Shown one piece after another: positions 1 to 25,366 of a DNA stretch of 25,366 nucleotides. The stretch's first letter is position 1; each line of letters opens with the position of its first letter. Source of the DNA: a virus; IMG/VR virus record IMGVR_UViG_3300025889_000869, positions 1 through 25,366 of that record. One strand, written 5' to 3'. A model generated the notes under the pieces. That model had not been told where the DNA came from. It did not search any database and saw nothing but the letters and a program-made list of their open reading frames with translations. A program made the position numbers and the translations under genes.

Positions 1-120
1 ATGTCTAAATGATTCTATTTTTAGCTTTTGACCCCCCCTATGCGTGTGTTTTTTGCTAATATTTAGGTAAAAACCCACCTTTTCGGTCAAATTTTGCGTG
101 TGTGTGCGGTCATCTTTCAT
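1..120 (-). CDS. Possible 5' part of an ORF leaving the window
   Basis: An ATG at 120 overlaps the stop of the HNH gene and opens a frame of 40 codons that runs off the left edge without a stop. The translation is basic and of low complexity and I recognise no domain. Position right after an HNH gene is where a small terminase subunit often begins, but the region also holds a C/G homopolymer and repeats typical of a cos region, so it may be non-coding. Only sequence beyond the edge can decide. Confidence 0.25.
   Translation of the reverse strand, partial: MKDDRTHTQNLTEKVGFYLNISKKHTHRGGQKLKIESFRH
32..103. other. Candidate cos/terminase-recognition region
   Basis: A run of seven C (32-38, seven G on the transcribed strand) is followed by two direct copies of TGCGTGTGT at 41-49 and 95-103. 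The stretch lies directly downstream of the HNH nuclease gene. In HK97-type phages the cohesive-end site lies close to the HNH and terminase genes. What is seen is the homopolymer and the repeat; the cos assignment is inference. Confidence 0.3.
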
Positions 121-400
121 GTGATTCACGTCCAGATTTGACGTTGTGACACCGATGACACATCGTTTGCAAGTTGTCCCACGCCAACGAATCACCACCG
201 CTTTTGATGGGAACGATGTGGTCCACCACTTGGCCAACGCTTTCACATTCGACACACAACGGGTTCCGCTTGATAAACATTCCGCGCAATCTTCGCCATG
301 CGGTTGACTGATAGAATTTATTTCTTTCAATGCGTTGTTTGCTTGACTTGTTTTGACCTTGCAACCACGGGCGTTGTTTTCTCTTTGGGACATTAGGCAT
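110..400 (-). CDS. HNH endonuclease (HK97 gp74-like)
   Basis: A 96-residue basic protein with a complete HNH zinc-finger core. A first pair of cysteines (PLCVEC, about residues 48-53) is followed by VVDHIVPI, carrying the catalytic-type Asp-His, then by GGDSLAWDNLQTMC and a second cysteine pair (MCHRCH), ending with HNVKSGRE. This is the layout of phage HNH nucleases related to HK97 gp74, which nick DNA and cooperate with terminase in genome cleavage and packaging. The ATG follows the stop of the zinc-ribbon gene directly. It is the last complete gene of the early operon, and the terminase genes would be expected next, beyond the left edge. The family call is secure; the packaging role is inferred from position. 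Confidence 0.9.
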   Translation of the reverse strand: MPNVPKRKQRPWLQGQNKSSKQRIERNKFYQSTAWRRLRGMFIKRNPLCVECESVGQVVDHIVPIKSGGDSLAWDNLQTMCHRCHNVKSGRESHER

Positions 401-703
401 CTACAATTTATCTTTTTGTTCTGGTTTGTAATATTTACGCAAATCGCGGTTGTTCTGGTCGCGTTCCACTTGCGTCATTTTAGATTCCCAGAACCCAAAA
501 TGAATGAACATATGATTGCGCATCGTGTATTTATCCACCACATATTTTTCCGACGCTTGGGGAATGTGCAACCCGCGTTCCCTTTTATATTCTTTTGAAC
601 ACGTTTTGCATTTCGGACGATAACCCGATTTTGTGTCGGTCAATCGTGCGAAATGTTTCAATTCCTTTTCTTCATTACACTTGGTGCAAACTTTAGTTTC
701 CAA
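401..703 (-). CDS. Zinc-ribbon protein with two CxxC motifs
   Basis: A 100-residue basic protein. The first 35 residues hold two CxxC knuckles (CTKC near residue 6 and CKTC near 32) separated by a segment with F and GYRP, a pattern common in small phage proteins related to HNH nucleases. The HNH catalytic histidine and asparagine core is not evident, so it may bind rather than cut DNA. There is no in-frame ATG upstream (an in-frame TAG lies just before), so a TTG at 703, overlapping the end of the preceding gene, is the likeliest start; the next ATG is deep in the protein and would remove the metal sites. It directly precedes the HNH gene and may act with it. The zinc site is read from sequence; the function is unknown. 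Confidence 0.65.
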   Translation of the reverse strand: METKVCTKCNEEKELKHFARLTDTKSGYRPKCKTCSKEYKRERGLHIPQASEKYVVDKYTMRNHMFIHFGFWESKMTQVERDQNNRDLRKYYKPEQKDKL

Positions 704-917
704 TTCTCTTTTCTATTGCGGTTTTTCTGTATTTCTTTATATGAGTGACAACGCCGTCGGCATCTTTGATGAATCGGATGGCGTGTCCAATCATTGGCGT
801 GTCGTTTACTTCTTTCAACAATGGAACCATTTCAGTCAATCGCACGGGTTTGGATTCGCCGACATTCATATCGACGAACAATTGCGCAATCTTGTTTCGT
901 GTTTTCAAATCAATCAT
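693..917 (-). CDS. Small conserved-looking hypothetical protein
   Basis: I do not recognise this 74-residue protein. The ATG at 917 forms an ATGA overlap with the PP-loop gene stop, arguing for translational coupling and against the ATG three codons upstream. The sequence begins with a short amphipathic helix (KTRNKIAQLF) and ends with a strongly basic tail (KKYRKTAIEKR). No cysteines, membrane segment or nuclease motif is visible. Its position between the PP-loop enzyme and the zinc-ribbon protein, with overlaps on both sides, suggests it belongs to the same early expression unit. A nucleic-acid-binding accessory role is possible but unsupported. Confidence 0.6.
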   Translation of the reverse strand: MIDLKTRNKIAQLFVDMNVGESKPVRLTEMVPLLKEVNDTPMIGHAIRFIKDADGVVTHIKKYRKTAIEKRIGN

Positions 918-1753
918 AAGCCACAATATCCCGAATCACATTCATTGAAATCGTCGTCAAACAATTTGATTTGACGTTTCCATTTCATTATCTCGCGGAA
1001 TGTTACATCCGAACGAAATGTTCCTTTGTTGTTTTCTTCTGTTTCTGCAAACCAATTCATTTTTTCGGGTTCCTTGTCGTTCATGTGCGACAACAACATT
1101 GGTGAACGCCACCAGCATCCAACGCAATTGTTCATGTAGGCAAACCGAACACGTTTGTCCGTCCAAAATTGTTCAATCGTGTCTTTGTAAATGTTCGCAT
1201 CAATCAACGGGAATGATGGTTTGCAATATTCAATTGTTTGCCATTTATTGTTCCCGTTTGGATGTTTGCCAACAATTATTTTCACCTCAACCATTCCGTT
1301 GTCGTTCATCTTTTCCATCATGCTTTTGGCACGGCGTGTTTCATTTGCACGATAACCAAAACGCATTTCAACGGGTCCATCAATGGTTTTATGACGCCAT
1401 TCTGCAATCGGAATCGTTTTCATTTCTGTCGTGCAAAACCGCGCGATTTTGTTTGGTAGATAGCCGCCTTTCTTTTTGATTACCTCGTCAAACGTTGGTC
1501 CCGTCAACCAAGTAATTTCACGACCGATGTATTGTTCCAAATCCAACATCGTGAAAATGATTGTGTCATCTTCAGCGGTTGCAACAAATGGTTTCCCGAT
1601 TCTATCTTCAACCATTTGACGAACCTTTTCATCGGGGAATCGACATCGTTCGTCCTCGATTCGAACCAAGGAAAAAACATCATAGTCCGCTGGATAATTT
1701 GCCGCGATATATGACGACGTTTTTCCGCCACTAAGTGAATTTATTGTTTTCAT
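914..1753 (-). CDS. PP-loop ATP pyrophosphatase (PAPS reductase/DndC-like superfamily)
   Basis: A 279-residue protein opening with a PP-loop, SGGKTS (residues 8-13), the ATP-binding signature of the adenine-nucleotide alpha-hydrolase superfamily (PAPS reductases, DndC-type and tRNA-thiolation enzymes). A second recognisable block, RFCTTEMK (105-112), resembles the Cys-containing motif of PAPS reductase/DndC proteins. Four more cysteines form two close pairs (NNCVGCWW, 210 and 213; ECDSGYC, 272 and 277) that could hold a metal or Fe-S cluster with C107. The ECGIH-type C-terminal motif of true CysH is not seen, so assimilatory sulfate reduction is less likely than a sulfur-transfer or nucleotide-modifying role. 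The gene starts 3 nt after the primase-helicase stop, in the replication operon. The superfamily is clear; substrate and role are unknown. Confidence 0.75.
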   Translation of the reverse strand: MKTINSLSGGKTSSYIAANYPADYDVFSLVRIEDERCRFPDEKVRQMVEDRIGKPFVATAEDDTIIFTMLDLEQYIGREITWLTGPTFDEVIKKKGGYLPNKIARFCTTEMKTIPIAEWRHKTIDGPVEMRFGYRANETRRAKSMMEKMNDNGMVEVKIIVGKHPNGNNKWQTIEYCKPSFPLIDANIYKDTIEQFWTDKRVRFAYMNNCVGCWWRSPMLLSHMNDKEPEKMNWFAETEENNKGTFRSDVTFREIMKWKRQIKLFDDDFNECDSGYCGL

Positions 1754-1755
1754 CC

Positions 1756-3717
1756 CTATAAAATACTAAAATTTTTGTCAATCATATCGGTTCGCCCTTG
1801 TTTACGATACCCAAACATTTTGTTGGCTTCCATTTCATTCAACAACTTGGTTGCCGTTCGCTTTGGAACGTTTTCCGTGTCTTGAATGAATTTGATGGCC
1901 GCGGTCTTGCTTTTCCCGTGAATCAATGGCAACACACCATCCATATCGTTTGACGTCCACACGCGTTCTTCAATCTTTTGCAACGGCTCTTTTTCAGTCA
2001 ATTCAATTGAATCATACGACGTGATGACCATTTCCATTGATGGGAATTCAATGTTTCGCGTGTATTCTGGAACAACATCCGACGCACTTGGTGTGTTTTC
2101 CGATTTAGCCAATGAAACGGCGGTTTCTGCCTTTTGCGTCAACAATGCGCCCAAATGTCCTTTGGCGTTTCTGTCATTCTTATTCTCATGTAATACACAC
2201 GAAATGTGGCAATCCTTTTCCGATGTCCATTGCAACAACTTGGACGCTATTTCCGTGGCTTCTTCTTCGTCGTTCACCCCTTTGGATGTCAAATCAACAA
2301 TCCCATCAATGACAACAAATCCAATGTTGTCAAACGATTTCATGACGTATTCCGTCAACTTCAATCGCTCTTTGTTGGTCAACAAACCGCGGAATCTGTA
2401 ATGTTTGAAATTCGGAATGTTGACACGCGGGTCCAATCCCGCCATTGTCAAAATCCTTTTTTTCGCACGCGCTGAATGCCAATCGCCCATTTCCGTGTCA
2501 ATGTAGATGTTCACGCGGTCATGAACGTGTCCGCGGATATGGTTGGAAATCGTATTGGTGGAAACGGCGGCGGCCATCAATGCCGACAAAAAATAACTTT
2601 TGCGCGATTTGGCTTTCCCTTGAATCAATGAAAAATTGCCCATCGTCCCGAACACATATTCATCGCCACCGAAATGCAACGTGATGGCCTTGTCTGGTTC
2701 TGCAACCTCAATGGATGAATCCACTTCCAACGACTGCAACAACGCCGCCATTTCATCCAATTGTTCGGGCGTGGCGTTCTCGTAATCAAACAACGCATCG
2801 TCCGACACTTTGCGTGAATCATTTGATTCGCCGAATCCTTGGTCGCGCAAATCTTTGATTGCGCTTTTGAAATCACCATTGTGACCCAATACAACGAAAC
2901 ATTGGAATGCGTCGTGCGCCTTTTCCGCCTCGAATTGTGTGGATGTCGTAAATGGGAAAAACGAACCCGAATCTTTGAAGATGACACCAGATGTTTCCGA
3001 TGTTGTTTCGCCCGGTCGCAACAAATACGTCATTCTTGCGTTTTCCCGAACGATTGTCCATCCGTAATGCAACAAGACGTCCAACGTGGTGTTCGTGGCT
3101 CTAAACTCGCCCCACGGCGTTGAATCGTCCGAATCGCTATCCAATACCGATTCCGTTGGTTGATTCTTTATTGGTTCGGGTTGCGGAATGGTGGCGTCCA
3201 TCATTTTGGCGCACATCCAAATCACGTTCCGTTCGTCGGGGCTGATTTCAACGACGTCGGTGATTTTTCCAATGATTTTATATCCCTTTGTCGGCCAAAC
3301 AACAATTTGACCACCCTTTCCGCGTGTTTCGAATATTACTTCGCCTTTACTATTCTTCGCCAACTTTTCGTTTCCCGCGATTTCCGAACATTTGAAAATC
3401 CAATGGAAACCGCCCGATTGCGTTTGCTGGATAATCATTTTGTTGATGAGTTCGGGCGCGTTGTCCTCAATCAATCCCTTGAATTCTTCGTATTCTTCCC
3501 CCTCAAAATATTTGGCGTCAATGTCCAAACATTGGATTCCATCGAAACCCATGACCAGACCAATGCCGTTGGTCTTATCGAAAACGCTGAAATCTTCAAT
3601 CGGTGTTTCTGCGTGTTGTTGCCATCCTTTCAGCAATGGCCGTTTTGAATTGCGGACCAATGGAATCGGGGAAAATCCGTGGTCGCGATATTTGTGGGCA
3701 ATCTTTTTGATGTCCAT
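1756..3717 (-). CDS. Primase-polymerase (AEP) fused to RecA-like helicase
   Basis: A 653-residue replication protein. The N-terminal part (about 1-170) is a bifunctional primase/polymerase of the archaeo-eukaryotic primase type: metal-binding CLDIDAK (D65, D67), then SGGFHWIF with H105, then an ETRGKGGQIVVWP block (130-142). A linker follows, with a second small domain around 205-300. The C-terminal part (about 335-600) is a RecA-like ATPase resembling RepA-type helicases: Walker A-like GKAKSRKS (367-374), Walker B FVVIDGIVDL (D471), then a HENK/GHLG block typical of RepA-like ATPases. A C-terminal winged-helix-like tail is possible. It should prime and unwind phage DNA. In the Walker A motif the usual glycine before KS is arginine, which I believe occurs in relatives. 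It is the largest early gene and starts 24 nt after a nuclease gene. Confidence 0.85.
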   Translation of the reverse strand: MDIKKIAHKYRDHGFSPIPLVRNSKRPLLKGWQQHAETPIEDFSVFDKTNGIGLVMGFDGIQCLDIDAKYFEGEEYEEFKGLIEDNAPELINKMIIQQTQSGGFHWIFKCSEIAGNEKLAKNSKGEVIFETRGKGGQIVVWPTKGYKIIGKITDVVEISPDERNVIWMCAKMMDATIPQPEPIKNQPTESVLDSDSDDSTPWGEFRATNTTLDVLLHYGWTIVRENARMTYLLRPGETTSETSGVIFKDSGSFFPFTTSTQFEAEKAHDAFQCFVVLGHNGDFKSAIKDLRDQGFGESNDSRKVSDDALFDYENATPEQLDEMAALLQSLEVDSSIEVAEPDKAITLHFGGDEYVFGTMGNFSLIQGKAKSRKSYFLSALMAAAVSTNTISNHIRGHVHDRVNIYIDTEMGDWHSARAKKRILTMAGLDPRVNIPNFKHYRFRGLLTNKERLKLTEYVMKSFDNIGFVVIDGIVDLTSKGVNDEEEATEIASKLLQWTSEKDCHISCVLHENKNDRNAKGHLGALLTQKAETAVSLAKSENTPSASDVVPEYTRNIEFPSMEMVITSYDSIELTEKEPLQKIEERVWTSNDMDGVLPLIHGKSKTAAIKFIQDTENVPKRTATKLLNEMEANKMFGYRKQGRTDMIDKNFSIL

Positions 3718-3741: not shown

Positions 3742-4104
3742 TTATCTAATCAACGCCCAATTGTCACAATTGCGCGAATATCTTTTGGGCGTCAATGTTA
3801 TTGACTTCCGTCCTTTTAATTCCTTAAAAGGAAAAATAAACCAACGGCGGTTCACCACGTCATAACAGATGACAAAATCAACGTTTTTATATTGGTCGAA
3901 AACACAAGTGATTTCCGCGTGGTGTTTCTTGATGTATGTCGCCGACTTCACTTGAATCGTCACAAAACGATTCCCGCGAAATGCTATCATGTCAATTTCC
4001 GATTGATGGACAAAAGGGAACGCAACGTGCCAATCCCTTTGAATCAATTCCGCCGCACATCGCAATTCCGCCAACGCGCCGTTTTTATGGTTGTCGTGAA
4101 TCAT
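3742..4104 (-). CDS. PD-(D/E)XK nuclease family protein
   Basis: A 120-residue protein with the compact core of a PD-(D/E)XK nuclease: an N-terminal helix with GALAELRCAAEL (E13), a strand carrying SEIDMIA (D38), then the strand VTIQVKSAT with Q51 and K53 in place of the commoner E-x-K. This matches the small family of phage and archaeal Hjc-like endonucleases I know as PDDEXK endonucleases. The C-terminal half alternates strands and basic turns. The start forms an ATGA overlap with the preceding VRR-NUC gene. It probably processes branched or damaged DNA during recombination-dependent replication. Fold assignment is good; substrate is unknown. Confidence 0.72.
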   Translation of the reverse strand: MIHDNHKNGALAELRCAAELIQRDWHVAFPFVHQSEIDMIAFRGNRFVTIQVKSATYIKKHHAEITCVFDQYKNVDFVICYDVVNRRWFIFPFKELKGRKSITLTPKRYSRNCDNWALIR

Positions 4105-4523
4105 TTGATTTTCGACAAATAGTCATCGTAGCTTTTCGCAATGAAATACACGCCACCAGAATCGTTGATTTCCTTTTCAATTTCCTTTTGTTCGGCGGAT
4201 TGTCTGTCCTTTCCAATCTTCACCTCAATGCCGTAAAATTTGCCGTCAATGATTCCAATGATGTCGGGAATCCCTTTGCGCTGGACGCCCTTCCGATACA
4301 CCTTGCGTTTGACATCGTACACCGCGCCGTTGTTTATTCGATACGCAACGCCACCGCGGACGTGATACATATCCCAAATGATTGTTTTTGTCAAATCATT
4401 GGCGGTGGTGTCTTTGAATCTTTGTTTGACCAATGCGTGCGGTGGCAACATTGGGTGTTTTTCGGCTTTCAGTTGGTCGGCTAATTTGCCCAACTCTTTT
4501 AGGTTCTTAGGAATCCAATTCAT
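4101..4523 (-). CDS. VRR-NUC domain nuclease
   Basis: A 140-residue protein whose C-terminal half is a VRR-NUC domain: KGIPDIIG (D87) followed by the FYGIEVKIGK strand (E100, K102) and the helix with Q-S-A-E-Q that typically follows in this family. VRR-NUC proteins are PD-(D/E)XK structure-specific nucleases related to FAN1 and phage Holliday-junction resolvases. The N-terminal 40 residues are helical and could bind DNA or a partner. I place the start at the ATG at 4523; a TTG ten codons upstream would overlap the preceding micro-gene more deeply. It overlaps the next nuclease gene by ATGA, pointing to coupled expression. A resolvase or debranching role is the likely one. Confidence 0.82.
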   Translation of the reverse strand: MNWIPKNLKELGKLADQLKAEKHPMLPPHALVKQRFKDTTANDLTKTIIWDMYHVRGGVAYRINNGAVYDVKRKVYRKGVQRKGIPDIIGIIDGKFYGIEVKIGKDRQSAEQKEIEKEINDSGGVYFIAKSYDDYLSKIK

Positions 4524-4650
4524 TATTGATTCTTTTGTTTGCAGAATGTTCAATCATTCTTGAAATGTGCGTTCGGTCCATGGCTTTCAAATAATCTTTG
4601 GCCAATTCCCAACAAATTCGGTCGAAATCATTCGGTGATTTGTCGCTCAT
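4507..4650 (-). CDS. Micro-gene, 47 residues, unknown
   Basis: An ATG at 4650 opens a 47-codon frame that bridges the exonuclease and VRR-NUC genes, overlapping the end of the first by 23 nt and the start of the second by 17 nt. The translation is a single mostly helical, charged segment (SPNDFDRICWELAKDYLKAM) with no membrane stretch. The tight placement in an otherwise gap-free operon and its amphipathic character favour a real gene over chance, but I recognise no family. Confidence 0.5.
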   Translation of the reverse strand: MSDKSPNDFDRICWELAKDYLKAMDRTHISRMIEHSANKRINNELDS

Positions 4651-5245
4651 ATTTTTGAACTTTATTCCAGAATTCCAAATATTTCATTTTACGCATTTCA
4701 ATTTCCATTTCAACGTCTGGGTCGTTGCGATGAACTCGGAAAATAAACAATTTTTTTTGAATGCGCGGGTCGAACGAAACGAAATCCATCCATTGCAAAG
4801 AATCAATCACAATGAAATAGTGCATCACTTGCGCTTTATATTGTGCGGGAATCTTGTTCATTCTCAAATATTCAACGTGCTTTTTCGTTGATGGACATTT
4901 GATTTCCACGCCACCAATTGGAACGTCCTTTTCATAGACCAGCGCGTCGGGACTGATGGCCAAAAAATCATGTTCGTCGTGAATGCAAAAACCGATTTCC
5001 CTTGCATCGTTTCCCGTTCTCATTCTGTATTCATCCAACGCCACGGGTTCCATCATGATGCCGTGCATCATAGCTTGCGTTGTTGGTGATTCTATAATCT
5101 CGCCCGACAATCGTTCGGCGATTAACTCATCGACAAACGTCAAATTGTTTGACTTGAAAATGTTCGCACATCGCGAACCCGTAATGACACCCAAACGCAT
5201 TTCGAACCATTCGCGTGACCTTTGTTCAACATTCTTGATTTTCAT
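4628..5245 (-). CDS. YqaJ/lambda-exonuclease-like recombinase nuclease
   Basis: A 205-residue protein with the full motif series of the YqaJ viral recombinase (lambda exonuclease) family: an N-terminal EQRSREWFEMRLGVITGS block (7-24), GIMMEP with E66, the metal-binding ISPDALV (D100), VEIKCPS with E114 and K116, and a following Q-A-Q-V-MHY helix (Q139). These enzymes form rings that degrade one strand of double-stranded DNA to expose single strands for annealing. The usual partner, a Beta/RecT-type annealing protein, is not evident here; the acidic-tailed ssDNA-binding protein upstream could interact with the exposed strand. It overlaps the preceding nuclease gene by ATGA. Residues for two-metal catalysis all appear intact. 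Confidence 0.9.
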   Translation of the reverse strand: MKIKNVEQRSREWFEMRLGVITGSRCANIFKSNNLTFVDELIAERLSGEIIESPTTQAMMHGIMMEPVALDEYRMRTGNDAREIGFCIHDEHDFLAISPDALVYEKDVPIGGVEIKCPSTKKHVEYLRMNKIPAQYKAQVMHYFIVIDSLQWMDFVSFDPRIQKKLFIFRVHRNDPDVEMEIEMRKMKYLEFWNKVQKYERQITE

Positions 5246-5784
5246 AAATCTTGATTTATTATTCTGTTTAATTCTTTAATATCGTGCAATTGTGAAATCC
5301 TCAAATCATAGGACGCGGCGCGATATGTTAAGACCGACCCGTTGTCCAAAACTTTCTGTTCACCTTTTGCCATATATGTGGCGTCCTCGAAATACATCTT
5401 TTTGGACCGCCATCCACAAATCGTGGTTTCATTGTTCTTTGTGTTGTGATGACAAAAAACATACATGTGGACCAGATACGATTTTTGCGTTGCCGCGATG
5501 TTGACTTGATAATGTGGGCGAACCGCTGAACGTGTCGCAATCGTTTTCACATCAATCGTCATTCCATTGCTTGCGACAATATCCACGCCGTCGTCAAACC
5601 CTTCTTTGCTTCGGTATTCTTCGACATCAATTCCAAGATATTCGCGGACGACATATTCACCCAATAAACCAATGTATTGGTCTTTTCGTGACCCATCAAA
5701 CCGACCGCGGTTCGCAAGGTTGTGACGCCCCAAATATTTCCAAATCCGTGCGCGTTGTTCTTCTGGTACAATCATGGAAATCAT
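5242..5784 (-). CDS. PD-(D/E)XK restriction-endonuclease-like protein
   Basis: A 180-residue protein with a recognisable nuclease core: IGLLGEYVVREYLG (E43 in the first helix), GFDDGVDIV (D68) and MTIDVKTIA (D78-V-K80). That spacing is typical of PD-(D/E)XK proteins. The region after residue 85 contains many aromatic and histidine residues and a GWRSKKMYFED strand pair that could shape the substrate pocket. I cannot assign a named family. It starts with ATG overlapping the stop of the upstream gene (ATGA) and its own stop overlaps the exonuclease start in the same way, so the two are probably translated together. A recombination or host-DNA-degradation role is inferred. Confidence 0.7.
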   Translation of the reverse strand: MISMIVPEEQRARIWKYLGRHNLANRGRFDGSRKDQYIGLLGEYVVREYLGIDVEEYRSKEGFDDGVDIVASNGMTIDVKTIATRSAVRPHYQVNIAATQKSYLVHMYVFCHHNTKNNETTICGWRSKKMYFEDATYMAKGEQKVLDNGSVLTYRAASYDLRISQLHDIKELNRIINQDL

Positions 5785-9859: not shown

Positions 9860-10318
9860 TTATTCTTCCGCTTTGGGTGTTGGTTTGGATTTCTTTGGCT
9901 TGGATTTTTTAGGTGTTCCAAATTCCTTTTGAACGTCGAACGACGGACACGCCTTGTTTGAAAATTCATTGTGTCCATGAACGGACGCGTCGGGATATTC
10001 TTTCAGCAATCCGCCAATGATGGTGTTCAGCGTTTCCCGTTGCGCTTGCGTGCGGGTGTCTTTTGGGTTCTTACTTTTATCAAGGCCGCCAATGTAGCAA
10101 ACGTGAATGGAATGTTCGTTGTGTCCCTTGACGCCCGCGCCCATCTGTTCCATCGGTCGTCCGACCTTCAATGTTCCGTCCAACTCAATCACAAAGTGGT
10201 AACCAATGTTTCGCCATCCACGCCCTTTGACGTGCCATGATTTTATCGTTTCCATTTTGATGTCGCGACCTTCTGGTGTCGCGGAACAATGGATAAATAT
10301 TTTGTCAATCTTTCTCAT
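9860..10318 (-). CDS. Endolysin, N-acetylmuramoyl-L-alanine amidase (amidase_2, T7 lysozyme type)
   Basis: A 152-residue zinc amidase that cleaves the bond between muramic acid and the peptide stem of peptidoglycan. Zinc ligands are H10 (IFIHCSAT), H116 (VHGHNEF) and C124 (KACPSFD). Catalytic Y40 (NIGYHFV) and K122 are present; the H116-K122-C124 spacing is the same as H122-K128-C130 of T7 lysozyme. The GWRNIGYHF and HSIHVCYIGG blocks are also typical. The last 20 residues are a lysine-proline tail (KKSKPKKSKP), perhaps for wall binding. No signal peptide, so release depends on the holin encoded next. It lies 3 nt after the 101-residue gene. Confidence 0.95.
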   Translation of the reverse strand: MRKIDKIFIHCSATPEGRDIKMETIKSWHVKGRGWRNIGYHFVIELDGTLKVGRPMEQMGAGVKGHNEHSIHVCYIGGLDKSKNPKDTRTQAQRETLNTIIGGLLKEYPDASVHGHNEFSNKACPSFDVQKEFGTPKKSKPKKSKPTPKAEE

Positions 10319-14956: not shown

Positions 14957-15946
14957 TTAAAAACCTCTATATCTTGAACGTGTTCGTGTTGCTTTTTCGC
15001 TTGACAATAGGATGTCTTGACCGCTTAATCTTCCGTAAACTTCAACCGCGCCGTTGCCACCGCCTTGCATCATGGTGTTTAGTTTTGATAATGGGATGAC
15101 CGCTTCCGATTCTCGCCCCTCGCCAATCAACGCCAATGTCGGTCCCGTCACGATTCCCCCTTCGGCCAATGCTGGGATTCCGCCTTCACCGCTTGCCGCT
15201 TTTGACATCGACGCTTTTATTGCACCCGCGGCGGCAATCATAGCCACACCCGCGGCCAATGCTAATCCCGCCCCGATGGGCGTTGGTCCCGCCAATAACG
15301 CTTTCACAAACCCAGAAACGGCGATTGAATATTGAATGAACATTTGTCCCAACTGCATTAAAAGGTCGGCAAAACTTCCAAGAATAAAACGACCCATGTC
15401 CGCGAATGACGCTTCACCAACCATCATCGCCCCCGCGATTTCAGCCATTCCCGAAATGGTGTTTCGTGCGAAATTCTCAATTGCCTTTCCGCCGTTTTCC
15501 GCCAATTCCAATTGCGCCAATTTTAACCTCACATAATTTTTGCGAAGATTTTCAAATTTGTCGTTGGTTTTTTCTTCGTCAAATGGTAGCGGGTCAAAAT
15601 CTTCCAATGCGCTTGGGTCAAGATTTACATTGAATGCGTCGCCATATCCATCCGAATCCGTCACGCCGTCGAGTGCTTCGCCGTAATTATCAAGCGCAAC
15701 GATTCCGTTGTTGAGGTCTTGATTCAAATCTTCGACTTGCCCTTCCAATGTCCCCAATGAACCCGTCGTTTCTTCGGTTTCCTCTTTAAACAAACCAAGG
15801 TCTTTCTTGATTTCTGTGACAACTTCACTAATAGATTTGAACGCGGGAACCGCCGTTTGTTCCATCTTCTGGAACGGCTTTACCATGATTTTGTCACGAC
15901 CAAAGAATTCAGCCGCTTCGTTGAATGCGCTAATTAATCCATTCAC
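14957..15946 (-). CDS. Tape measure protein, C-terminal part (separate frame)
   Basis: A 329-residue continuation of the tape measure protein. It starts at GTG 15946, overlapping the TGA of the N-terminal part (GTGA). Acidic helical segments (about 40-140) precede hydrophobic alanine-glycine-rich spans (ALLAGPTPIGAGLALAAGVA) and the motif ALAEGGIVTGPTLALIGEG followed by AVIPLSKL, a hallmark of tape-measure C-termini. The frame is open for about 60 nt upstream of the GTG, and the joined translation reads like one protein (NAVFQR then VNGLISAFNE). It may be made by re-initiation, by an unusual frameshift, or the split may come from a one-base change or error in a short AAAGG run. No canonical slippery heptamer is present. 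Confidence 0.8.
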   Translation of the reverse strand: MNGLISAFNEAAEFFGRDKIMVKPFQKMEQTAVPAFKSISEVVTEIKKDLGLFKEETEETTGSLGTLEGQVEDLNQDLNNGIVALDNYGEALDGVTDSDGYGDAFNVNLDPSALEDFDPLPFDEEKTNDKFENLRKNYVRLKLAQLELAENGGKAIENFARNTISGMAEIAGAMMVGEASFADMGRFILGSFADLLMQLGQMFIQYSIAVSGFVKALLAGPTPIGAGLALAAGVAMIAAAGAIKASMSKAASGEGGIPALAEGGIVTGPTLALIGEGRESEAVIPLSKLNTMMQGGGNGAVEVYGRLSGQDILLSSEKATRTRSRYRGF

Positions 15947-17283
15947 CTTTGGAATACGGCGTTCACCATGCTCGCAATGGCGTTTCTTGCCGTTGCGCTG
16001 AATGCTTTAAAATTGTAGGCGACGTAAATCACACCCGCCGCCAATGCCGCAATCAATGCCACAATTGCCGTGATTGGTAAAAACAAAGAATGCGTCACGA
16101 TTGCCAACGCCTTGGTTGCGATTGTCTGCAAAATTGTGGCGTTTCTTAACACAACCAAACTTCGCGCAAGGCCACCAAATAGGAATATTGCGGGACCAGC
16201 TACCGCCGCAATTCCCGCAATGACGGCAATCAATTTTTTCATTGCTGGGGACAATTCATTGATGAACGCCGCCAACGATGTCAATTTCTTAATCAATGGA
16301 ACCAATGCAACGGCAATCAATGCGCCAAACTCAATCGCCACACCTTCAACCGCTGAACCCAACGCCTTGGTTGCACCTTCCGCCGTTAGATTCATGACGT
16401 CCGCCATGGATTTCGCCGCCCCCGCGGATTCTTCAAATGATTTTGTCAATGGGTCAATCTGGTCAACACCTTCGGCCAAAATTGTCAATGCACCTTGCGC
16501 GGCGCGTCCAACCTCATCTTTTGCATCAACCAACGTCAAACCACTTGCCGCCAAATCTCGAATGGCTTCGGTTGTTGGTTTTCCCGTTGTAGCTAATTCC
16601 GAAATGATTCGACGCAATTGTGTTCCCGCCATTGAACCTTTGACACCCGCATTCGCCAACAACGACATCATGGCGGTTGTTTCTTCCAATGACATCCCCG
16701 CGGATTTCGCAATAGGTGCGACCATCTTCATTCCTTCCGCGAATGATTCCATGTCCATTGATGACGTGGAAAAAGATTTGGCCATCACATCCGTGACGCG
16801 TCCCGTTTCGCTAACATCAAAACCAAAACCGCGCAACGTTGCGCCCGCAACTTCCGCCGCCCGTGCCAAATCGCTTCCAGACGCTTGCGCCAAATTCAAT
16901 GTGGCTTCGGTTACACCTTCGATTTGTTTCGCGGTGAAACCAAGTTTCGCAAATTCCGTTTGTAATCCCGCAACCTCACGCGCTGAAAAGATAGTCGAAC
17001 GACCCAATTCTTTGGCGTTGTCCGACAACATTTTGAATTCTTCAGCGGTCGCCCCCGATACGGCTTTGACCTTCGCCATTTCCGCTTCGAATCCTTTGAA
17101 CACATTGAACGACATTGCACCCAAAGCCGTGATGGGCGCAGTCAACTTCATGGACAAATTTTTGCCCGTTTGTTGCATCTTGCGACCCATGCGGTCCATG
17201 GCGCGTTCGGCTTTATTTAAACCCGTGCGGAACGGCTTAATGTTCGCCGTTAATCTAAAATTCAAACTACTTATGCCCGCCAT
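15943..17283 (-). CDS. Tape measure protein, N-terminal part (TP901 core)
   Basis: A 446-residue protein with the TP901-type tape-measure core: ALGAMSFNVFKGFEAEMAKV, SGATAEEFKMLSDNAKELG, then FSAREVAGLQTEFAKLGFT and the LAQASGSDLARAAEVAG region, all in the expected order. The last third is hydrophobic, with several possible membrane-inserting spans (LIAVIAGIAAVAGPAIFLFG; LPITAIVALIAALAAGVIYV). Tape measure proteins set tail length and help DNA entry through the inner membrane. With the 329-residue downstream part the total is about 775 residues; by the known proportion between residues and length this would suit a tail near 110-120 nm. The start overlaps the chaperone stop by 17 nt. Confidence 0.9.
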   Translation of the reverse strand: MAGISSLNFRLTANIKPFRTGLNKAERAMDRMGRKMQQTGKNLSMKLTAPITALGAMSFNVFKGFEAEMAKVKAVSGATAEEFKMLSDNAKELGRSTIFSAREVAGLQTEFAKLGFTAKQIEGVTEATLNLAQASGSDLARAAEVAGATLRGFGFDVSETGRVTDVMAKSFSTSSMDMESFAEGMKMVAPIAKSAGMSLEETTAMMSLLANAGVKGSMAGTQLRRIISELATTGKPTTEAIRDLAASGLTLVDAKDEVGRAAQGALTILAEGVDQIDPLTKSFEESAGAAKSMADVMNLTAEGATKALGSAVEGVAIEFGALIAVALVPLIKKLTSLAAFINELSPAMKKLIAVIAGIAAVAGPAIFLFGGLARSLVVLRNATILQTIATKALAIVTHSLFLPITAIVALIAALAAGVIYVAYNFKAFSATARNAIASMVNAVFQR

Positions 17284-18003: not shown

Positions 18004-18435
18004 TTAAACTGATGCTTGCGTCAATACGCCCGTGCCCGTTATGCTGAAAGAATATGTGACATTTTCTTCAACGCCCGCTTCTTGTTCGTAAGAAACTAAA
18101 TATGCTTTTCCACTATAGTCAATTTCCCCCGCCGTCATTGAACCGAATTTCACATCGATTGCCGTTCGGTTGTTTAATATCGTGAACAATTCGTCGGGTG
18201 TTTCGTAATCACCAGAAATTGAATAGGTGACTAACCCGTCGCCACTCAATGACCAATTTTTTAAACCTTCCAAGTTTTCTTGCCACCCCGCTGAATCTTT
18301 CGTGGTGATGTCTCTTGTTTCCATTGAAACAGAAAGTGACGCGCTTGTTGCACGTCCTATGATGTCGTAAGACGACCCGTCTGTACTAATTTGAATCACA
18401 ACGTCCGTTGAATTCATGATTGATGTTGCTGGCAT
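18004..18435 (-). CDS. Major tail (tube) protein
   Basis: A 143-residue, all-beta protein of the TP901-1/HK97 tail tube type: SYDIIGRATSASLSVSMETR, then DITTKDSAGWQENLEGLKNW (the characteristic disulfide-free D-x-T-x-K-x-S-x-GW-x-E motif), SLSGDGLVTY and a C-terminal YSFSITGTGVLTQ. Subunits stack as hexamers to form the tail tube through which DNA passes. It is preceded by an intergenic gap of 35 nt with an AAAGGTAG sequence near the start, and followed by a hairpin terminator, a configuration that suits the high expression needed. Confidence 0.88.
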   Translation of the reverse strand: MPATSIMNSTDVVIQISTDGSSYDIIGRATSASLSVSMETRDITTKDSAGWQENLEGLKNWSLSGDGLVTYSISGDYETPDELFTILNNRTAIDVKFGSMTAGEIDYSGKAYLVSYEQEAGVEENVTYSFSITGTGVLTQASV

Positions 18436-18470
18436 AATTTCTACCTTTTATTTTTTACAATTTACTAAAT

Positions 18471-18860
18471 CTAATCGCGTGACACTCGGAATTTCAAATC
18501 ACATTGTGACCCGAACGTCCGTTCGTCATCGCTGAACAAATCGCGTTGTCCATCGAACACGCACGATTTTACTTTCACGCCGCCAATTGTTTCGTCCATC
18601 CTTACGAATGCGCTTCGAATGTATTCAACGGCGTTTTGTGTGTCCGAATATTTGGTCGAAACCATAGTGATGCGGACGTCAATTTCGTCAATGTGTGAAT
18701 CGCTTTCCTTCGACATACTCGTGGAAATGCTCACAACCTCATAAACCGCGAACGGCGTGGCCTTTGTTTGTTCGCCAACAACGGGGAAAACGCGTCCACC
18801 AAACAACGTGTTCAAATTTGAATCGCTGGTGAATTTTGATTTGATGACAACGCCAATCAT
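18471..18860 (-). CDS. Tail completion protein (DUF3168/gp17-like)
   Basis: A 129-residue protein that resembles the DUF3168 tail completion family: a short N-terminal helix with DSNLNTLFGGRVFPVVGEQT, then KATPFAVYEVVSISTS, a central strand with HIDEIDVRITMVSTKYSD and the helix of TQNAVEYIRSAFVRM. Such proteins cap the tail tube end and join it to the neck. The gene begins with an ATGA overlap with the gp10-like gene and precedes the tube protein, which is the family's usual position. Confidence 0.78.
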   Translation of the reverse strand: MIGVVIKSKFTSDSNLNTLFGGRVFPVVGEQTKATPFAVYEVVSISTSMSKESDSHIDEIDVRITMVSTKYSDTQNAVEYIRSAFVRMDETIGGVKVKSCVFDGQRDLFSDDERTFGSQCDLKFRVSRD

Positions 18861-19465
18861 ACCCGTGCGGCTTTTACTTGTTTATTTAAAAATGAACGCA
18901 TCCGTCGTTTGAACTCATGTCCAACACCCGCGGAATTTTGCATCCGTGCTTTTCTTGCGAATCCAACGTTTGCGCCTTTATACTTTCCATTGTTCAAATA
19001 CCCGTATTCAATGAAATGGGCAAACCAACCGCCTTTTTCTGGGTCTTTGAAAGTACGTTTGACACGCGGTCCAACTTGCAACGATGCGAATGTTGAACCC
19101 TTGTTCACGCGCGTTGTGATGATTCCCATTGATTTCCGCAATTGTCCTTTCGTAATTTCAGCGTAAACGCCGCCGTTGCGATACACAACAAATTTGTCGC
19201 GTGGATTCTTGCGTCCCTTTTCGGATGTTGATGACGATGGGAAATCGGTGATTCCGTCGCGATACGCTTTCAACATTGGTTTCAATGATGCCCGCGCAAT
19301 GCGTCTAATTTGCGCCGTTGTGACGCCGTCGTGTAATTCTTCCAACTCTTTGAATGCGCGTTCGAATTCCTTTTTGATGTCCTTTTCATCAAATCCGATG
19401 AATGCACCACCGCCGCCACGACCTTGGTTTGAACCTTTGATTCTTTGAAACGTATTGAACCCCAT
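18857..19465 (-). CDS. HK97 gp10-like neck/tail completion protein
   Basis: I start at ATG 19465, which overlaps the head-closure stop as TAATG, giving 202 residues; a longer frame would intrude into the upstream gene. The protein has an N-terminal glycine-rich stretch, the helix DEKDIKKEFERAFKELEEL, then TTAQIRRIARASLKPMLKAY, characteristic of gp10-type proteins, and a basic beta region with GWFAHFIEYGYLNNGKY, the typical H-x-x-EYG motif. It ends in a helix that is rich in arginine (FKRRMRSFLNKQVKAARV). It forms part of the head-tail interface. Confidence 0.8.
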   Translation of the reverse strand: MGFNTFQRIKGSNQGRGGGGAFIGFDEKDIKKEFERAFKELEELHDGVTTAQIRRIARASLKPMLKAYRDGITDFPSSSTSEKGRKNPRDKFVVYRNGGVYAEITKGQLRKSMGIITTRVNKGSTFASLQVGPRVKRTFKDPEKGGWFAHFIEYGYLNNGKYKGANVGFARKARMQNSAGVGHEFKRRMRSFLNKQVKAARV

Positions 19466-20357: not shown

Positions 20358-20546
20358 TTATCGTGTTTGTTTTGATGTGGTTTTCTTCACCGCTTTTTTC
20401 GCGCGTTTCTTCGGTGGTTCTGGGACCGCCTCACAAAGACCCGAATTCAAAAACTTTCGTGCTTCGGCTTCGGGTAAATCCACCACGTCATCAACGACGT
20501 GGTGGAATTTAGGTCCGACAACCGATTGGTTGAACTTAACTTTCAT
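20358..20546 (-). CDS. Small capsid-adjacent basic-tailed protein
   Basis: A 62-residue protein starting at an ATG that overlaps the capsid stop as TAATG. The first half is beta-like with HHVVDDVVDLPEAEARKFL, a pattern common in short phage proteins coding between capsid and connector genes; the second half is a lysine-rich tail (EPPKKRAKKAVKKTTSKQ). It may bind DNA or decorate the head. A 10-bp perfect inverted repeat lies inside its coding sequence at 20480-20505. Confidence 0.65.
   Translation of the reverse strand: MKVKFNQSVVGPKFHHVVDDVVDLPEAEARKFLNSGLCEAVPEPPKKRAKKAVKKTTSKQTR
20480..20505. repeat. Perfect 10-bp inverted repeat inside a coding region
   Basis: CCACCACGTC (20480-20489) and GACGTGGTGG (20496-20505) flank a 6-nt loop. 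It codes for HHVVDDVV on the minus strand. A stable mRNA stem 40-65 nt after the capsid stop could protect the capsid message or slow readthrough. Confidence 0.6.
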
Positions 20547-21718
20547 TAAACTTTACCAACGAGGTGTTTGATGGCGCGTGTGTCAACGGCGTGTCCGTCA
20601 CGTCTTGCGCTAACAAGGAAACCGACTTCCATTTCGTCCATGTATCTTTCATCAAGACGAATCAAGTTGATGCCACCAGCACGACGAACAACGTATTTGT
20701 CGAAATCTGCGGCAATCAATACTTTTTCAGCCGCGGCCAAATCGCTATCCATGTCGTTGTTGTAATACACATTATACCCAAACAATTTGTCTGGTTCACC
20801 AGCCGTCATCGATGGGATGAAGATTGGGAAATCGTTTGAACTACCAACGCCCAATTTTTGCAACAATGCCATGATTGTTCCCGAACACATCAAACCGAAT
20901 GAAGATTTGTTGCGGTAAGATGGGTCAATTGAGTGGATAAGATTCAACACGTCGTTCGCTACCAATGCGCCCGATGTTGCAACTTCCGCACCTTCCAAAG
21001 ATTCGGCAACGATTCCTTTTGGCTTGTCTGTTCCGTCCCCCGATGTGAAATCAATGTTTGTAGCGCGTGCAACTCTTTCGCCCAACGCTTCAACCAAGAA
21101 TGAATCAAGATTGAAACCAGCATCGTCAATCAATTGCTTTGATACACGAACTAAAGACGTGTAGTTGTAAGAATTGAACGTAACGTTTCCGAACGTCATG
21201 TCGGTTGCGGTTGTTGCGCCGCCTTCGGCTTTGATTGCCGCATCGTTGCCCGTATCGTTCACGGTTGGGTAGTCTAACGGATTACCGCTTGCCGTGTCCA
21301 ATTTTTTGGCCACTCTTTCAACTTGACCCGTAAATTCCGTTGCAACGTCTAAAACACCGCTGAATCCTTCTGGCACTAAGAAACCACCAGACGCGCCCGT
21401 GGTTGTCAATTGTGCGCGTTCTTCAGCGTTAAGACCCGCTAAACCTCTTTTTAGGTATTTACCGAAAATCGCCGTGCGTGATTGCTTTGGCGCGGCTTCG
21501 CGTGCTTCAGCGTTTGCCGCCAATTCCTTTTTCATTTCCGCCGCACGTTCCAACGTTTCGATTTGCGTCATCATTGAACGCGCGTCGCTTTCCATTGCGT
21601 CGAATTTTTGTTGTTCTTCGGCGTTCAATGAACGACCTTCCTTTTGGGCGTTGTCAACAAGTGCCATCGCGCCTTTGATTAGTTCGGCTCTTTGGCCTCT
21701 CAATTCGATGTTTTTCAT
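20546..21718 (-). CDS. Major capsid protein (HK97 gp5 family)
   Basis: A 390-residue HK97-fold capsid protein. The N-terminal 75 residues form a charged, coiled-coil delta domain (AEEQQKFDAMESDARSMMTQ) that acts as internal scaffold and is likely removed by the protease. The body begins around TTGASGGFLVPEGFSGVLDV and has the typical regions SYNYTSLVRVSKQLIDDAGF, FTSGDGTDKPKGIVAESL and a C-terminal FLVSARRDGHAVDTRAIKHL. The ATG overlaps the protease stop (ATGA), so the two proteins are produced together. Confidence 0.95.
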   Translation of the reverse strand: MKNIELRGQRAELIKGAMALVDNAQKEGRSLNAEEQQKFDAMESDARSMMTQIETLERAAEMKKELAANAEAREAAPKQSRTAIFGKYLKRGLAGLNAEERAQLTTTGASGGFLVPEGFSGVLDVATEFTGQVERVAKKLDTASGNPLDYPTVNDTGNDAAIKAEGGATTATDMTFGNVTFNSYNYTSLVRVSKQLIDDAGFNLDSFLVEALGERVARATNIDFTSGDGTDKPKGIVAESLEGAEVATSGALVANDVLNLIHSIDPSYRNKSSFGLMCSGTIMALLQKLGVGSSNDFPIFIPSMTAGEPDKLFGYNVYYNNDMDSDLAAAEKVLIAADFDKYVVRRAGGINLIRLDERYMDEMEVGFLVSARRDGHAVDTRAIKHLVGKV

Positions 21719-23280
21719 CGTGTTAAATTTAGAATTTTACTTTTATACAAATAAATGTTGGACACTTCTTCGCCATCGTTTGAAACAGAATCACCCGCGT
21801 TGGGTGGTGTTGTTTCAATTGGTGGTGTTTCCGTTTCCAAATCGCGTTTCAATTCCGATGTCGCCATTTGATACGCGGGCATTGCCACGGGACTGACATC
21901 AATCAAACGTGATACTTTTTCAATGATTCGGTACGTTTTGCCGTCGCGTTCTTCCCATCGGTCTTGACCGATTAGGAATGCGAACGACGATTGATTGATG
22001 TCGCCACGCTTCATCAATTCAACCAAATCATTGGCATATGTTGTATTGGGCAAATCGACTTCGTAGTACAAACCGCGTTTGTCCGTTCCGATTCTTAGCG
22101 TGCCACTTGACACACGCCCCAATAAATAATTTTCGTCATGGTTGTAATATGCGCGAACGTCGTCATTCATCACGTCGTCGAATGCGCCTTTTTCTATTTG
22201 CTCATAATACCCCATGAATTCGGAATCCGAATCATAAACGGCCGCATAACCACGAACGACATCGCCGTTGTGTTCCATGCTTTCCATTCGGAATTCCCTT
22301 TGTTCTATTACGCCAGAAGATTTGCGAACTTCGGCGTCAAATTTTTCCAATGAACTGAAACGATGCGCCACATTCAAAACGGGTTTGCGCTCAATATACG
22401 CATCTTCTTCGCTTGAATATCTAAACAACCGAATCAACGCCGCTGGGTCGTCGCTTGTTCCGTTCACCTCAAAACCCGAATCCGCTTCAATCACGCCGTC
22501 GGTTTCCACTTGGATGATTCGTCCGTAAGCATTGCCGCCCGATGAATTCCATTTCACGAAATCACCAACCGACAATTCGTCGGGTTCCGCGCGTTCTTCA
22601 ACCAAGATTCCGCGAACACTTTCAACGACCGATGAATTGTTGTCGTAATGACGACCGATTTCCAATTCTTGAATCTTTGCGATTTTGCTTTCATCGTCGC
22701 CCATAGCGAACACGCGTTCTTTGTCAATGCCGTTCGCAATGGCGAACCCTTGCAAATATTCATCGTTCTCGCGTGCGCTTATGATGTAAATTTCCGAACC
22801 TTTGTTTTTTTCTTCTTCAAAATATGCGCGTCCCGCTTCCGTGTTCAATGTGCCATCAAAATCAAACGACACTTTTTCCATTTCTGGTTCTTCGCTCATT
22901 TCCGATTTGCCAAACGTGATGACGATTTCGTCATCTGTTTCAATCACGGATTTGATATGTCTTTTCTTTTCTTCCATTTGTTCAATCGTTCTTTTTGCCC
23001 AACGCAACATTTCATCGCCACCCCATGCCGCGTACATTATCGAACCGCAAATTTCCTTTCCATCCTCATCAAAGAAATCGCCTTGGTCGTACACTTTGGC
23101 GCGTGATAAAAATGAATAAGTGCGAACCAAAACATCGTCCGAAATCGGGTCGCCCTTTGATAAGGTGTTGGCTCTTTGCCAACCCACGGGCGTTCCACAA
23201 TCCGTTCCGTTTTCTTCGCGGTGTTTCAACGCTTTTGACGCATTATCTCGCGCCGCTTTAGGGTAGTTATTCCACGGCAT
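21715..23280 (-). CDS. Multidomain capsid maturation protease polyprotein
   Basis: A 521-residue protein with at least four modules. Residues about 1-103 form a domain (NASKALKHREENG, CGTPVGWQRANTLSKG, YAAWGGDEMLRWAK) that I know from other phage protease and virion polyproteins. About 136-222 is HAD-like: FDFDGTLN (D140, D142), YIISAR (S168), GDDESK and HYDNN (D213). About 236-290 is a small beta barrel (SVGDFVKWNSSGG), Tudor/HVA1-like. About 325-480 is an HK97-type prohead protease of the U35/S78 family: H381 in YYNHDENYLLGR, serines 431-432 in INQSSFAF and the closing DVSPVAMPAYQM. HK97 gp4 has about 225 residues. It sits between portal and capsid, overlapping both. Confidence 0.88.
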   Translation of the reverse strand: MPWNNYPKAARDNASKALKHREENGTDCGTPVGWQRANTLSKGDPISDDVLVRTYSFLSRAKVYDQGDFFDEDGKEICGSIMYAAWGGDEMLRWAKRTIEQMEEKKRHIKSVIETDDEIVITFGKSEMSEEPEMEKVSFDFDGTLNTEAGRAYFEEEKNKGSEIYIISARENDEYLQGFAIANGIDKERVFAMGDDESKIAKIQELEIGRHYDNNSSVVESVRGILVEERAEPDELSVGDFVKWNSSGGNAYGRIIQVETDGVIEADSGFEVNGTSDDPAALIRLFRYSSEEDAYIERKPVLNVAHRFSSLEKFDAEVRKSSGVIEQREFRMESMEHNGDVVRGYAAVYDSDSEFMGYYEQIEKGAFDDVMNDDVRAYYNHDENYLLGRVSSGTLRIGTDKRGLYYEVDLPNTTYANDLVELMKRGDINQSSFAFLIGQDRWEERDGKTYRIIEKVSRLIDVSPVAMPAYQMATSELKRDLETETPPIETTPPNAGDSVSNDGEEVSNIYLYKSKILNLTR

Positions 23281-24487
23281 CGTTTGCGTCGTTTACATTG
23301 GCGGAAACGTCCGTCATGTTCAGCGGTTGCAAATACACATTGCCGCCGTCAATCGGTTCCATATTTTCAAAACGTCGAATGTCATTGGCGGACAAAAATC
23401 CCCATTGACGCGCGACGGCATACGATTGATAACGCGACTTAATATCGCCACGCAACAATCCATCCATTTCAAATCGGATGTAATAATCGGAATCACCGAC
23501 AAACAATTTTCGGTTCAATTCGGCTTCCCATCTTTTCACCCATGGCAAAATCGTGTTTCGTTGGAACATGATTCCTTGTTCTTCGACATTCGCTCGCGTT
23601 GAACTTTGGTCCATAGAACCCAGATAAGCCAACGGCAAACGGAAAAATCTTGCAATATCTTCAACGCCAAATTTCCGCGTGGAAATGAATTGTGAATCTT
23701 GCGGTGAAACGGACAATTTGGTCACGTTCATGCCTTCTTCCAATATGGCGGTTTTGTGTGAATTGTTCAACCCCGTGTTTCTTTGCGACCACGAACGCAT
23801 CAATCTTTTATAGGCTTCGTCGCTCAATCTTGCTGGGTGTGTCAACACCGCTGAAATGTTCGCGCCGTTTCCAAAGAATGAACCACCGAATTGGTCGGCG
23901 GCCAATCCAAGGCCAATCGATTCACGCGCACATTCAATCACAGATTTCCCAACAACGCCGTCAAATCCTAATCCAACAATGTGAATCATTTCCGAATCGT
24001 CGAACGTTTCTTTGTCGTCTATCTGGTAAAACTTTTCGTCCTCGTATATCTTGACCGATACGCGTTCGGGGGCAATCGGAATCAATTTGATTGGGTTCCC
24101 CGCGTTGTCGCGTTTGATTGCGATGAATGCGTTTCCGTGCAAACAAAGATTTGCTTGACACGTTTCGCGGAATGTAAAATCCGACATCAATTGATTCGGT
24201 TCGTGAATCAATTTATTGATGGGATGCGCGTCGGCATTGCGGACCATTCCGTCCGTCGATTGTTTGACGTGCCACGGCAATGTTGCCATCGTTTCCGATA
24301 TTACACGAACCGCCCCAAATACCGCGGACAATTGCATCGCGGTGTTTTCAGTTACAGAAATCCCCGTTTTTGATTCATTTCCCGCGAACAACCATTCGGC
24401 GGGATTCGACAAATTTGTCGATGGGCGATTCGGGTTGTTTCGAAACGCGCCCAATATTCGCCCAAACAAGTTTTGATTTTCGGCCAT
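23267..24487 (-). CDS. Portal protein (HK97 gp3 family)
   Basis: A 406-residue portal protein. Motifs in order: VTENTAMQLSAVFGAVRVIS (N-terminal helix region), ATLPWHVK, HPINKLIHEPNQLMSDFTFR, NLCLHGNAFIAIKRD, LIPIAPERVSVK, IVGLGFDGVVGKSVIECARE, then EDIARFFRLPLAYLG, TRANVEEQGIMFQRNTILPW and FEMDGLLRGDIKSRYQSY. Twelve copies form the DNA gate at the capsid vertex to which terminase docks. It follows the 24537-24569 terminator, so it probably heads the late structural operon. Terminase genes usually lie upstream; here two small genes and a terminator do. Confidence 0.95.
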   Translation of the reverse strand: MAENQNLFGRILGAFRNNPNRPSTNLSNPAEWLFAGNESKTGISVTENTAMQLSAVFGAVRVISETMATLPWHVKQSTDGMVRNADAHPINKLIHEPNQLMSDFTFRETCQANLCLHGNAFIAIKRDNAGNPIKLIPIAPERVSVKIYEDEKFYQIDDKETFDDSEMIHIVGLGFDGVVGKSVIECARESIGLGLAADQFGGSFFGNGANISAVLTHPARLSDEAYKRLMRSWSQRNTGLNNSHKTAILEEGMNVTKLSVSPQDSQFISTRKFGVEDIARFFRLPLAYLGSMDQSSTRANVEEQGIMFQRNTILPWVKRWEAELNRKLFVGDSDYYIRFEMDGLLRGDIKSRYQSYAVARQWGFLSANDIRRFENMEPIDGGNVYLQPLNMTDVSANVNDANDAVE

Positions 24488-24918: not shown

Positions 24919-24919
24919 A

Positions 24920-25168
24920 TTAGAAATCTAAAGTGAAAGAAACTTCTTCAACATCTTTTTCGGTTGCTAATTCTATGTCCATGAATGTTTGGTCGCGTTC
25001 TGTTGGTGATTCAATCACGCAAGTGACACCATCCATTTCGGTCATCAATCTTTGGTATTCTTCCGAATCTTGGTTTTGTAATTTCTTGAATGTTGCGTTT
25101 GATACTTCAACGATGCGTTCTTCGCTTACGATGTAAGTTTCTGTGTAAGTGACTTTAATTGTTTTCAT
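24920..25168 (-). CDS. Small hypothetical protein
   Basis: From ATG 25168 this encodes 82 residues (an in-frame start 17 codons upstream would read through the promoter region and is rejected). It starts with beta strands rich in T, V and I (KTIKVTYTETYIVSEERIVE), has a helical middle (NATFKKLQNQDSEEYQRLM) and an acidic C-terminus (ATEKDVEEVSFTLDF). No known domain. It has its own promoter and the A-rich leader shared with the gene at 8368-8598, and is followed by the second stem-loop element. Confidence 0.65.
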   Translation of the reverse strand: MKTIKVTYTETYIVSEERIVEVSNATFKKLQNQDSEEYQRLMTEMDGVTCVIESPTERDQTFMDIELATEKDVEEVSFTLDF

Positions 25169-25188
25169 TTTGTCTTTTGTTTTTGTTT
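25166..25188 (-). promoter_or_regulatory. Repeated A-rich 5' leader, copy 2
   Basis: The 20 nt before ATG 25168 are AAACAAAAACAAAAGACAAA, one A longer than the leader at 8596-8617. No Shine-Dalgarno sequence is present. Confidence 0.55.
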
Positions 25189-25194
25189 GATATT

Positions 25195-25223
25195 CAAATA
25201 TACAAAAAAAACAATACAATCAA
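25195..25223 (-). promoter_or_regulatory. Bacteroidetes-type promoter
   Basis: On the minus strand TATATTTG (25195-25202) is a perfect match to the -7 consensus TAnnTTTG, with TTG (25221-25223) 18 nt upstream as a -33 element; a TTTTG is just before. It lies between the stop of the partial gene and the A-rich leader of the next. Confidence 0.7.
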
Positions 25224-25245
25224 CAAAACGTGAAAAACTTTTTTT

Positions 25246-25366
25246 TTAATTATTCCCAACCGATTCGCAATCCGTCCAAAAGACATCCACCATTTCCCCG
25301 TTTAAAACCAAACGAATCGTGAATCCGTCGCCCGATTCTTGCAACCACGGCGTGAATCCTAAATCA
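25246..25366 (-). CDS. C-terminal end of an unknown protein (partial)
   Basis: An open frame enters from the right edge and ends with TAA at 25248-25246. The last 39 residues are visible: beta-like with TPWLQESGDGFTIRLVLNGE and VDVFWTDCESVGNN. There is no internal start, so the gene begins outside the window. In a circular map it might be the last gene of the missing terminase segment. No family assignment is possible. Confidence 0.6.
   Translation of the reverse strand, partial: DLGFTPWLQESGDGFTIRLVLNGEMVDVFWTDCESVGNN

Follow-up and report, generated by a model that had tools for sequence, protein, structure and literature searches.

The elimination of a restriction site from an entire phage genome has been described in several systems. 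In Staphylococcus phage K, GATC has been lost genome-wide, which has been read as escape from the GATC-cutting host enzyme Sau3A (PMC6532042). Among double-stranded DNA phages, near-complete elimination of palindromic type II sites is reported for approximately one tenth of viral genomes (PMC6286503). Here we analyze the absence of GATC from a contig of an HK97-type tailed phage, IMG/VR record IMGVR_UViG_3300025889_000869, which is classed as linear and whose 25,366 bases are referred to as the window. Like phage K, the window is devoid of GATC throughout; unlike phage K, whose host enzyme is known, its host enzyme has to be deduced, and its family includes both GATC-bearing and GATC-enriched members. 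As in the phages covered by PMC6286503, a palindromic type II site is nearly or fully eliminated, whereas the depletion of at least six words, some of them non-palindromic and in a set that varies by clade, departs from the pattern given there.

Two further systems offer a comparison. In the Flavobacterium LMO6/LMO9 phages tooticki6-1, mumin9-1, snork6-1 and hemulen6-1, GATC occurs 2, 4, 2 and 2 times versus 66, 67, 65 and 65 expected (the first 36,000 bases being counted for the last two), and CTAG, CGCG and GGCC are depleted as well. These four are the near-GATC-free members among seven cultured records, the others being FpV9 (46/150), 2A (38/113) and phi18:3 (77/123, first 49 kb). The host-dependent plating of the LMO6/LMO9 phages is ascribed to restriction-modification by the authors who described it (PMC7077304). 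Like the window, probably, they are Bacteroidota phages with GATC depletion; unlike it, they belong to another family, carry several methyltransferases, and retain a few GATC sites. The second system is phiX174, from which GATC is likewise wholly absent, although it is a 5.4-kb phage of E. coli for which mismatch repair is the driver discussed (PMC5014478). Among the listed results of our literature search, whose coverage leaves out most subscription journals, there was no paper on GATC absence in the present phage family. Restriction-site avoidance is already well known, and the GATC loss in the window, although genuine, is a further instance of it.

Absence of GATC under composition and codon models

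The first-pass annotation, made by reading the sequence, had reported that GATC appeared completely absent and took this to suggest strong selection. An exact search returned zero occurrences on either strand of the 25,366 bases. The approximately 99 sites that the annotation gave as the expectation at equal base frequencies are correct (25,366/256), and the Markov comparison that it proposed yielded 106.6 sites under a second-order model and 114.5 under a first-order model. In dinucleotide-preserving shuffles (n=100) the mean was 114.85 (sd 9.39). Synonymous-codon shuffling of the open reading frames of the window, which preserves both protein and codon usage, gave an expectation of 80 GATC in coding DNA, with a minimum of 65 among 60 shuffles. 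The absence persists under dinucleotide, Markov and codon nulls, and strong selection against GATC is supported. If a site is considered avoided when its count is at most 0.1 of the composition-based expectation, GATC is avoided in the window.

The loss is specific to the recognition word rather than to composition, as GAT and ATC are both frequent in the window. With both strands counted, AATC (518 vs 390) and CATC (334 vs 237) are more common than expected, an excess that fits words standing in for GATC. Codon choice tells the same in all three registers, in each of which GATC is avoided. Before a codon starting with C, Asp is encoded by GAT and GAC in a ratio of 0:46, compared with 200:195 elsewhere; after a codon ending in G, Ile is encoded by ATC and by other codons in a ratio of 0:114 (171:184 elsewhere); and after xGA, Ser is encoded by TCN and AGY in a ratio of 0:11 (420:88 elsewhere). 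The purge of GATC is thus independent of protein and codon content.

These results bear on the proposal that the absence is due to base composition or codon usage, or was introduced artefactually by assembly or library preparation. Composition is strongly skewed, with GAG found just 11 times on the plus strand; nevertheless, nulls preserving dinucleotides, trinucleotides or codons each expect at least 80 GATC. The same datasets also yield related contigs with and without the word: in 3300018416, L015 has 11 of 35 expected sites while L021 and L104 have none, and in 3300028008, L004 has none while G010 has 39 of 96, which counts against a library artefact. We regard this proposal as refuted, with a negligible probability.

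GATC and other depleted words in the phage family

Relatives (loci L001-L112) were gathered through their capsid, portal and Prim-Pol proteins, giving a set of 106 contigs that includes the window and in which pieces of one record were merged into that record. Two distant loci, L024 and L026 (capsid identity 28% and 34%; GATC 51/69 and 13/17), and the 3,092-base piece L091 were left out. The observed/expected ratio of GATC is below 0.06 in 51 contigs, between 0.06 and 0.6 in 42, and higher in 13; these are counts of contigs rather than of independent events, as several from one dataset may be a single virus, and phylogeny serves better as a measure. In the tree built from 79 portal rows, the zero-GATC state needs seven changes, at least six of which are forced by supported branches. 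The comparison with related phages that had been suggested therefore reveals a variable GATC state, and the GATC-free condition has been gained or lost repeatedly within the family. Hosts may well have changed along with it.

The variation extends to enrichment. Under codon shuffling, from which, as from the clade comparison of words below, contigs shorter than 7,000 bases were excluded, GATC is enriched about twofold in the coding DNA of G011 (L067; 159 vs 81) and G012 (L008; 96 vs 39). In G011 the Asp bias is opposite to that of the window, with GAT:GAC at 47:6 before C. At the finest scale, L041 and L040 do not differ in their portal proteins and are 97% identical in DNA, yet over the 3.3 kb they share they contain 6 and 0 GATC, respectively. 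When their 76 substitutions were placed randomly on L040, 1.7 GATC were expected, and six or more arose in 11 of 2000 draws; three of the six sites lie within clusters of neighbouring differences, and the pair gives no direction of change.

At least six words, GATC among them, are depleted in the window. Expectations for the others were obtained with maximal-order Markov models and with codon shuffling, given here in that order. GGAG/CTCC is absent from both strands (expected 27 and 91), a loss that the first-pass annotation had missed, and in the close relative G001 it occurs once versus 114 expected. CCGG is found three times, at 3012, 10718 and 10817 (72 and 46); ACCGT/ACGGT once (52 and 26); TCAGA/TCTGA never (24 and 28); and CAGG/CCTG five times (36 and 56). 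CTAG, with 0 versus 10.5 expected, is low in many related contigs as well. By the Markov model, the two strongest depletions are those of GATC and CCGG, both palindromes, which agrees with the prediction of type II site avoidance (PMC6286503).

The set of lost words depends on the clade. CCGG, GGAG and TCAGA are lost in the clade of the window, while in its sister clade (L030-L046) GATC is absent, CATG and ACAG are depleted, and more CCGG is retained. CAGG is missing from G011 and G012, which retain GATC, and AGCT is missing from G011 as well (0 vs 26). Such differences among clades are expected if host enzymes change.

An alternative driver is evasion of the MutH/Dam system of methyl-directed mismatch repair, which has been proposed for phiX174, a phage devoid of GATC in which inserted sites lower the mutation rate (PMC5014478). 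Such an escape leaves unexplained the losses of CCGG, GGAG and the other words, as well as the relatives enriched in GATC. Bacteroidota are not known to encode MutH, which also counts against it. We consider this driver hardly credible for the window.

Within the 42 contigs of the middle group, the surviving GATC sites depend on their context. GGATC/GATCC amounts to 476 of 782 expected (0.61), compared with 353 of 1399 (0.25) for other GATC, and 41 of the 42 contigs show GGATC/GATCC spared relative to other contexts, for example L089, L085, L016 and L049. A milder tilt in the unrestricted group (1.12 vs 0.79; 11 of 13 contigs) indicates that the effect is in part background. Codon shuffling points the same way, giving 16 vs 14 expected for GGATC/GATCC and 3 vs 30 for other GATC in L089, and 24 vs 18 and 7 vs 30 in G017; G015 shows the opposite, with 7 vs 16 and 20 vs 32.

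Gene content, methyltransferases and host

The recognized genes of the window, all on the minus strand, were assigned by Pfam and PHROGs matches and, besides those listed, include tail tube and head-tail connector genes. No tRNA genes were found in the window.

110..400, minus strand: HNH endonuclease, adjoining the terminase genes (Pfam HNH, E 9e-10)
914..1753, minus strand: PAPS-reductase-like ATP pyrophosphatase (phrog_424; partial, weak SspD match)
1756..3717, minus strand: Prim-Pol and AAA replication protein
3742..4104, minus strand: PDDEXK_5 family protein, also found in GATC-keeping relatives
4101..4553, minus strand: VRR-NUC-like nuclease (VRR_NUC under the Pfam cut-off; phrog_93 endonuclease), also found in GATC-keeping relatives
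4628..5245, minus strand: YqaJ recombination exonuclease
5242..5784, minus strand: 180-aa protein, candidate PD-(D/E)XK nuclease, so assigned by eye only
9860..10318, minus strand: N-acetylmuramoyl-L-alanine amidase, endolysin (phrog_822, E 1e-59)
15943..17283, minus strand: tape measure / minor tail protein (PhageMin_Tail, E 9e-40)
20546..21718, minus strand: HK97-type major capsid protein (Phage_capsid, E 2e-49)
21715..23280, minus strand: prohead protease (S78)
23267..24487, minus strand: portal protein, the basis of the family tree (Phage_portal, E 3e-107)

Base 1 of the window, about 110 bp past the HNH stop codon, coincides with the end of contig L098 (99.8% identical). At the other end, contig L002 (99.6% identical over 4,855 bases; GATC 0 vs 35 expected) runs past base 25366 into TerL and TerS. 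Homologues of both window ends adjoin each other in the relatives L100 and L106, which, together with the continuation in L002, indicates that about 2 kb carrying TerS and TerL is missing from the window.

The claim that no methyltransferase is visible held: PF00145, PF01555 and PF02086 give zero matches in the window, and the TerS-TerL piece, as read from L002, has no methyltransferase either. Elsewhere in the family, methyltransferase genes come and go around TerS, namely a 208-aa N6/N4 enzyme, a 334-aa N6/N4 enzyme and the cytosine methyltransferase C5H, and such swapping around the terminase genes is a sign of restriction pressure. The HNH-TerS-TerL region of L127, L100, L064 and L059 is a hot spot for these exchanges. 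Family searches with PF02086 and PF01555 covered 37 records rather than the full set of 106 contigs. The CcrM-like 334-aa gene was found in 8/106 contigs, all of which lie outside the zero class, and the 208-aa gene in 6 contigs of the zero class and 8 outside it; C5H occurs only in the GATC-bearing G009, G028, L052 and L059. Methyltransferase gain was considered as an explanation for the return of GATC and rejected, as none of the three genes tracks GATC cleanly.

G001 carries a cytosine-5 methyltransferase at 23086-23916 (L116:7086-7916), between a DnaA-C-like gene region and its neighbour, where the window is without it; G001 has this gene yet no GATC. On the same 30-kb phage contig (L116; G001 17504-19179), a PAS histidine-kinase-like gene is followed by a response-regulator-like gene, both assigned from the sequence by reading. 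The PAPS-reductase-like gene at 914..1753 is patchy across the family; SspD, which it partially matches, belongs to phosphorothioate defence.

The nucleases of the window raise the idea that the phage destroys host DNA with a GATC-cutting enzyme of its own, to which a GATC-free phage would be immune. Candidates are available in the HNH, PDDEXK_5, VRR-NUC-like and YqaJ proteins and possibly a further PD-(D/E)XK protein, but PDDEXK_5, VRR-NUC-like and YqaJ are equally present in the GATC-keeping L080 and L105. In the sister lineages free of GATC, the protein at 5242..5784, which has zero Pfam, PHROGs or NCBIfam matches, was not detected, and it is present (31%) in L105, which has 51 GATC. Searches for members of the DpnII family in 14 records gave no match. 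A self-protecting nuclease is accordingly very improbable.

The hosts are probably aquatic (marine) Bacteroidota. This assignment derives from the kinship of Prim-Pol with Cellulophaga phages, its nearest cultured relatives (33% identity, covering 45% of the protein), and from a TATATTTG-like promoter motif near 25,190, which we take to be of the Bacteroidota type. Scanning 84,980 species genomes with the portal alignment yielded one relative only, in a metagenome-assembled genome labelled candidate division WOR-3 (L135, CP070686.1, 2393413-2414636). There, the phage accounts for about 6.5 kb, which breaks off within the capsid gene at a run of N, and unrelated genes flank it in the scaffold. 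Given the N run and the unrelated flanks, the scaffold is likely chimeric and uninformative about the host.

Probable host restriction and its alternatives

From these patterns we infer host restriction enzymes as the cause, and likewise their type. The absence is best explained by host restriction in which GATC is one target among several, and we judge this explanation probable. The lineage would have been exposed for long to hosts cutting unmodified GATC, with DpnII/MboI/Sau3AI specificity, and with no GATC methyltransferase in the phage every GATC would be a liability. Selection would then have swapped each site for synonymous or near-synonymous words, and CCGG, GGAG/CTCC, ACGGT, TCAGA and CAGG may have been lost likewise, lineage by lineage, as the imprint of several host enzymes. 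The first-pass annotation had proposed host restriction of the DpnII/MboI/Sau3AI type as the simplest cause. It still is, but a single enzyme is insufficient when at least six words are depleted.

The annotation had also offered restriction of modified GATC, under which some present or former hosts methylate the site (Dam type) while others cut the methylated form (DpnI type). The present data do not separate this from restriction of unmodified GATC, as both would yield an identical absence, and GATC is under-represented in 45 of the 46 phages whose hosts have such annotated enzymes (PMC6286503). The authors of that study, however, hold ordinary type II enzymes with the same site mainly responsible for the weak avoidance of DpnI-type sites. 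A DpnI-type cause also requires passage through methylating hosts, plus further enzymes for the remaining lost words, and we judge it unlikely.

Several findings weigh against restriction of GATC by host enzymes. The depleted words GGAG, ACGGT and TCAGA are non-palindromic, and most avoidance has been found at orthodox type II sites, whereas sites of types I, IIG and III are avoided weakly if at all (PMC6286503). No gene gain or loss was found that accounts for the return of GATC. A 95% identical copy of the 334-aa methyltransferase lies in a phage stretch with 22 GATC vs 40, and a 56% identical homologue of C5H is carried by tooticki6-1, with its 2 GATC vs 66. Finally, the portal-based genome scan gave no host, and a GATC-specific enzyme was seen in none.

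With host restriction as the preferred explanation, what most deserves further attention is the family-wide pattern together with the GGATC context rule. It is possible, though we hold it as a tentative idea, that the restriction systems of uncultured hosts can be read from the words depleted in this family, and that some of these words are not ordinary type II sites, as suggested by the total loss of GGAG/CTCC in the clade of the window and by the GATC loss that spares GGATC in the middle group. If so, the latter would point to a defence against GATC that either is blocked at GGATC or fails to recognize it. A single word that is absent, partly depleted in a context-dependent manner, or doubled in close relatives provides a natural experiment on the pace at which sites disappear and return. 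Since roughly half of the related contigs are without GATC, enzymes that cut this word may be widespread in the hosts of these aquatic phages, and phage sequence alone may reveal the restriction specificities of hosts that are uncultured.

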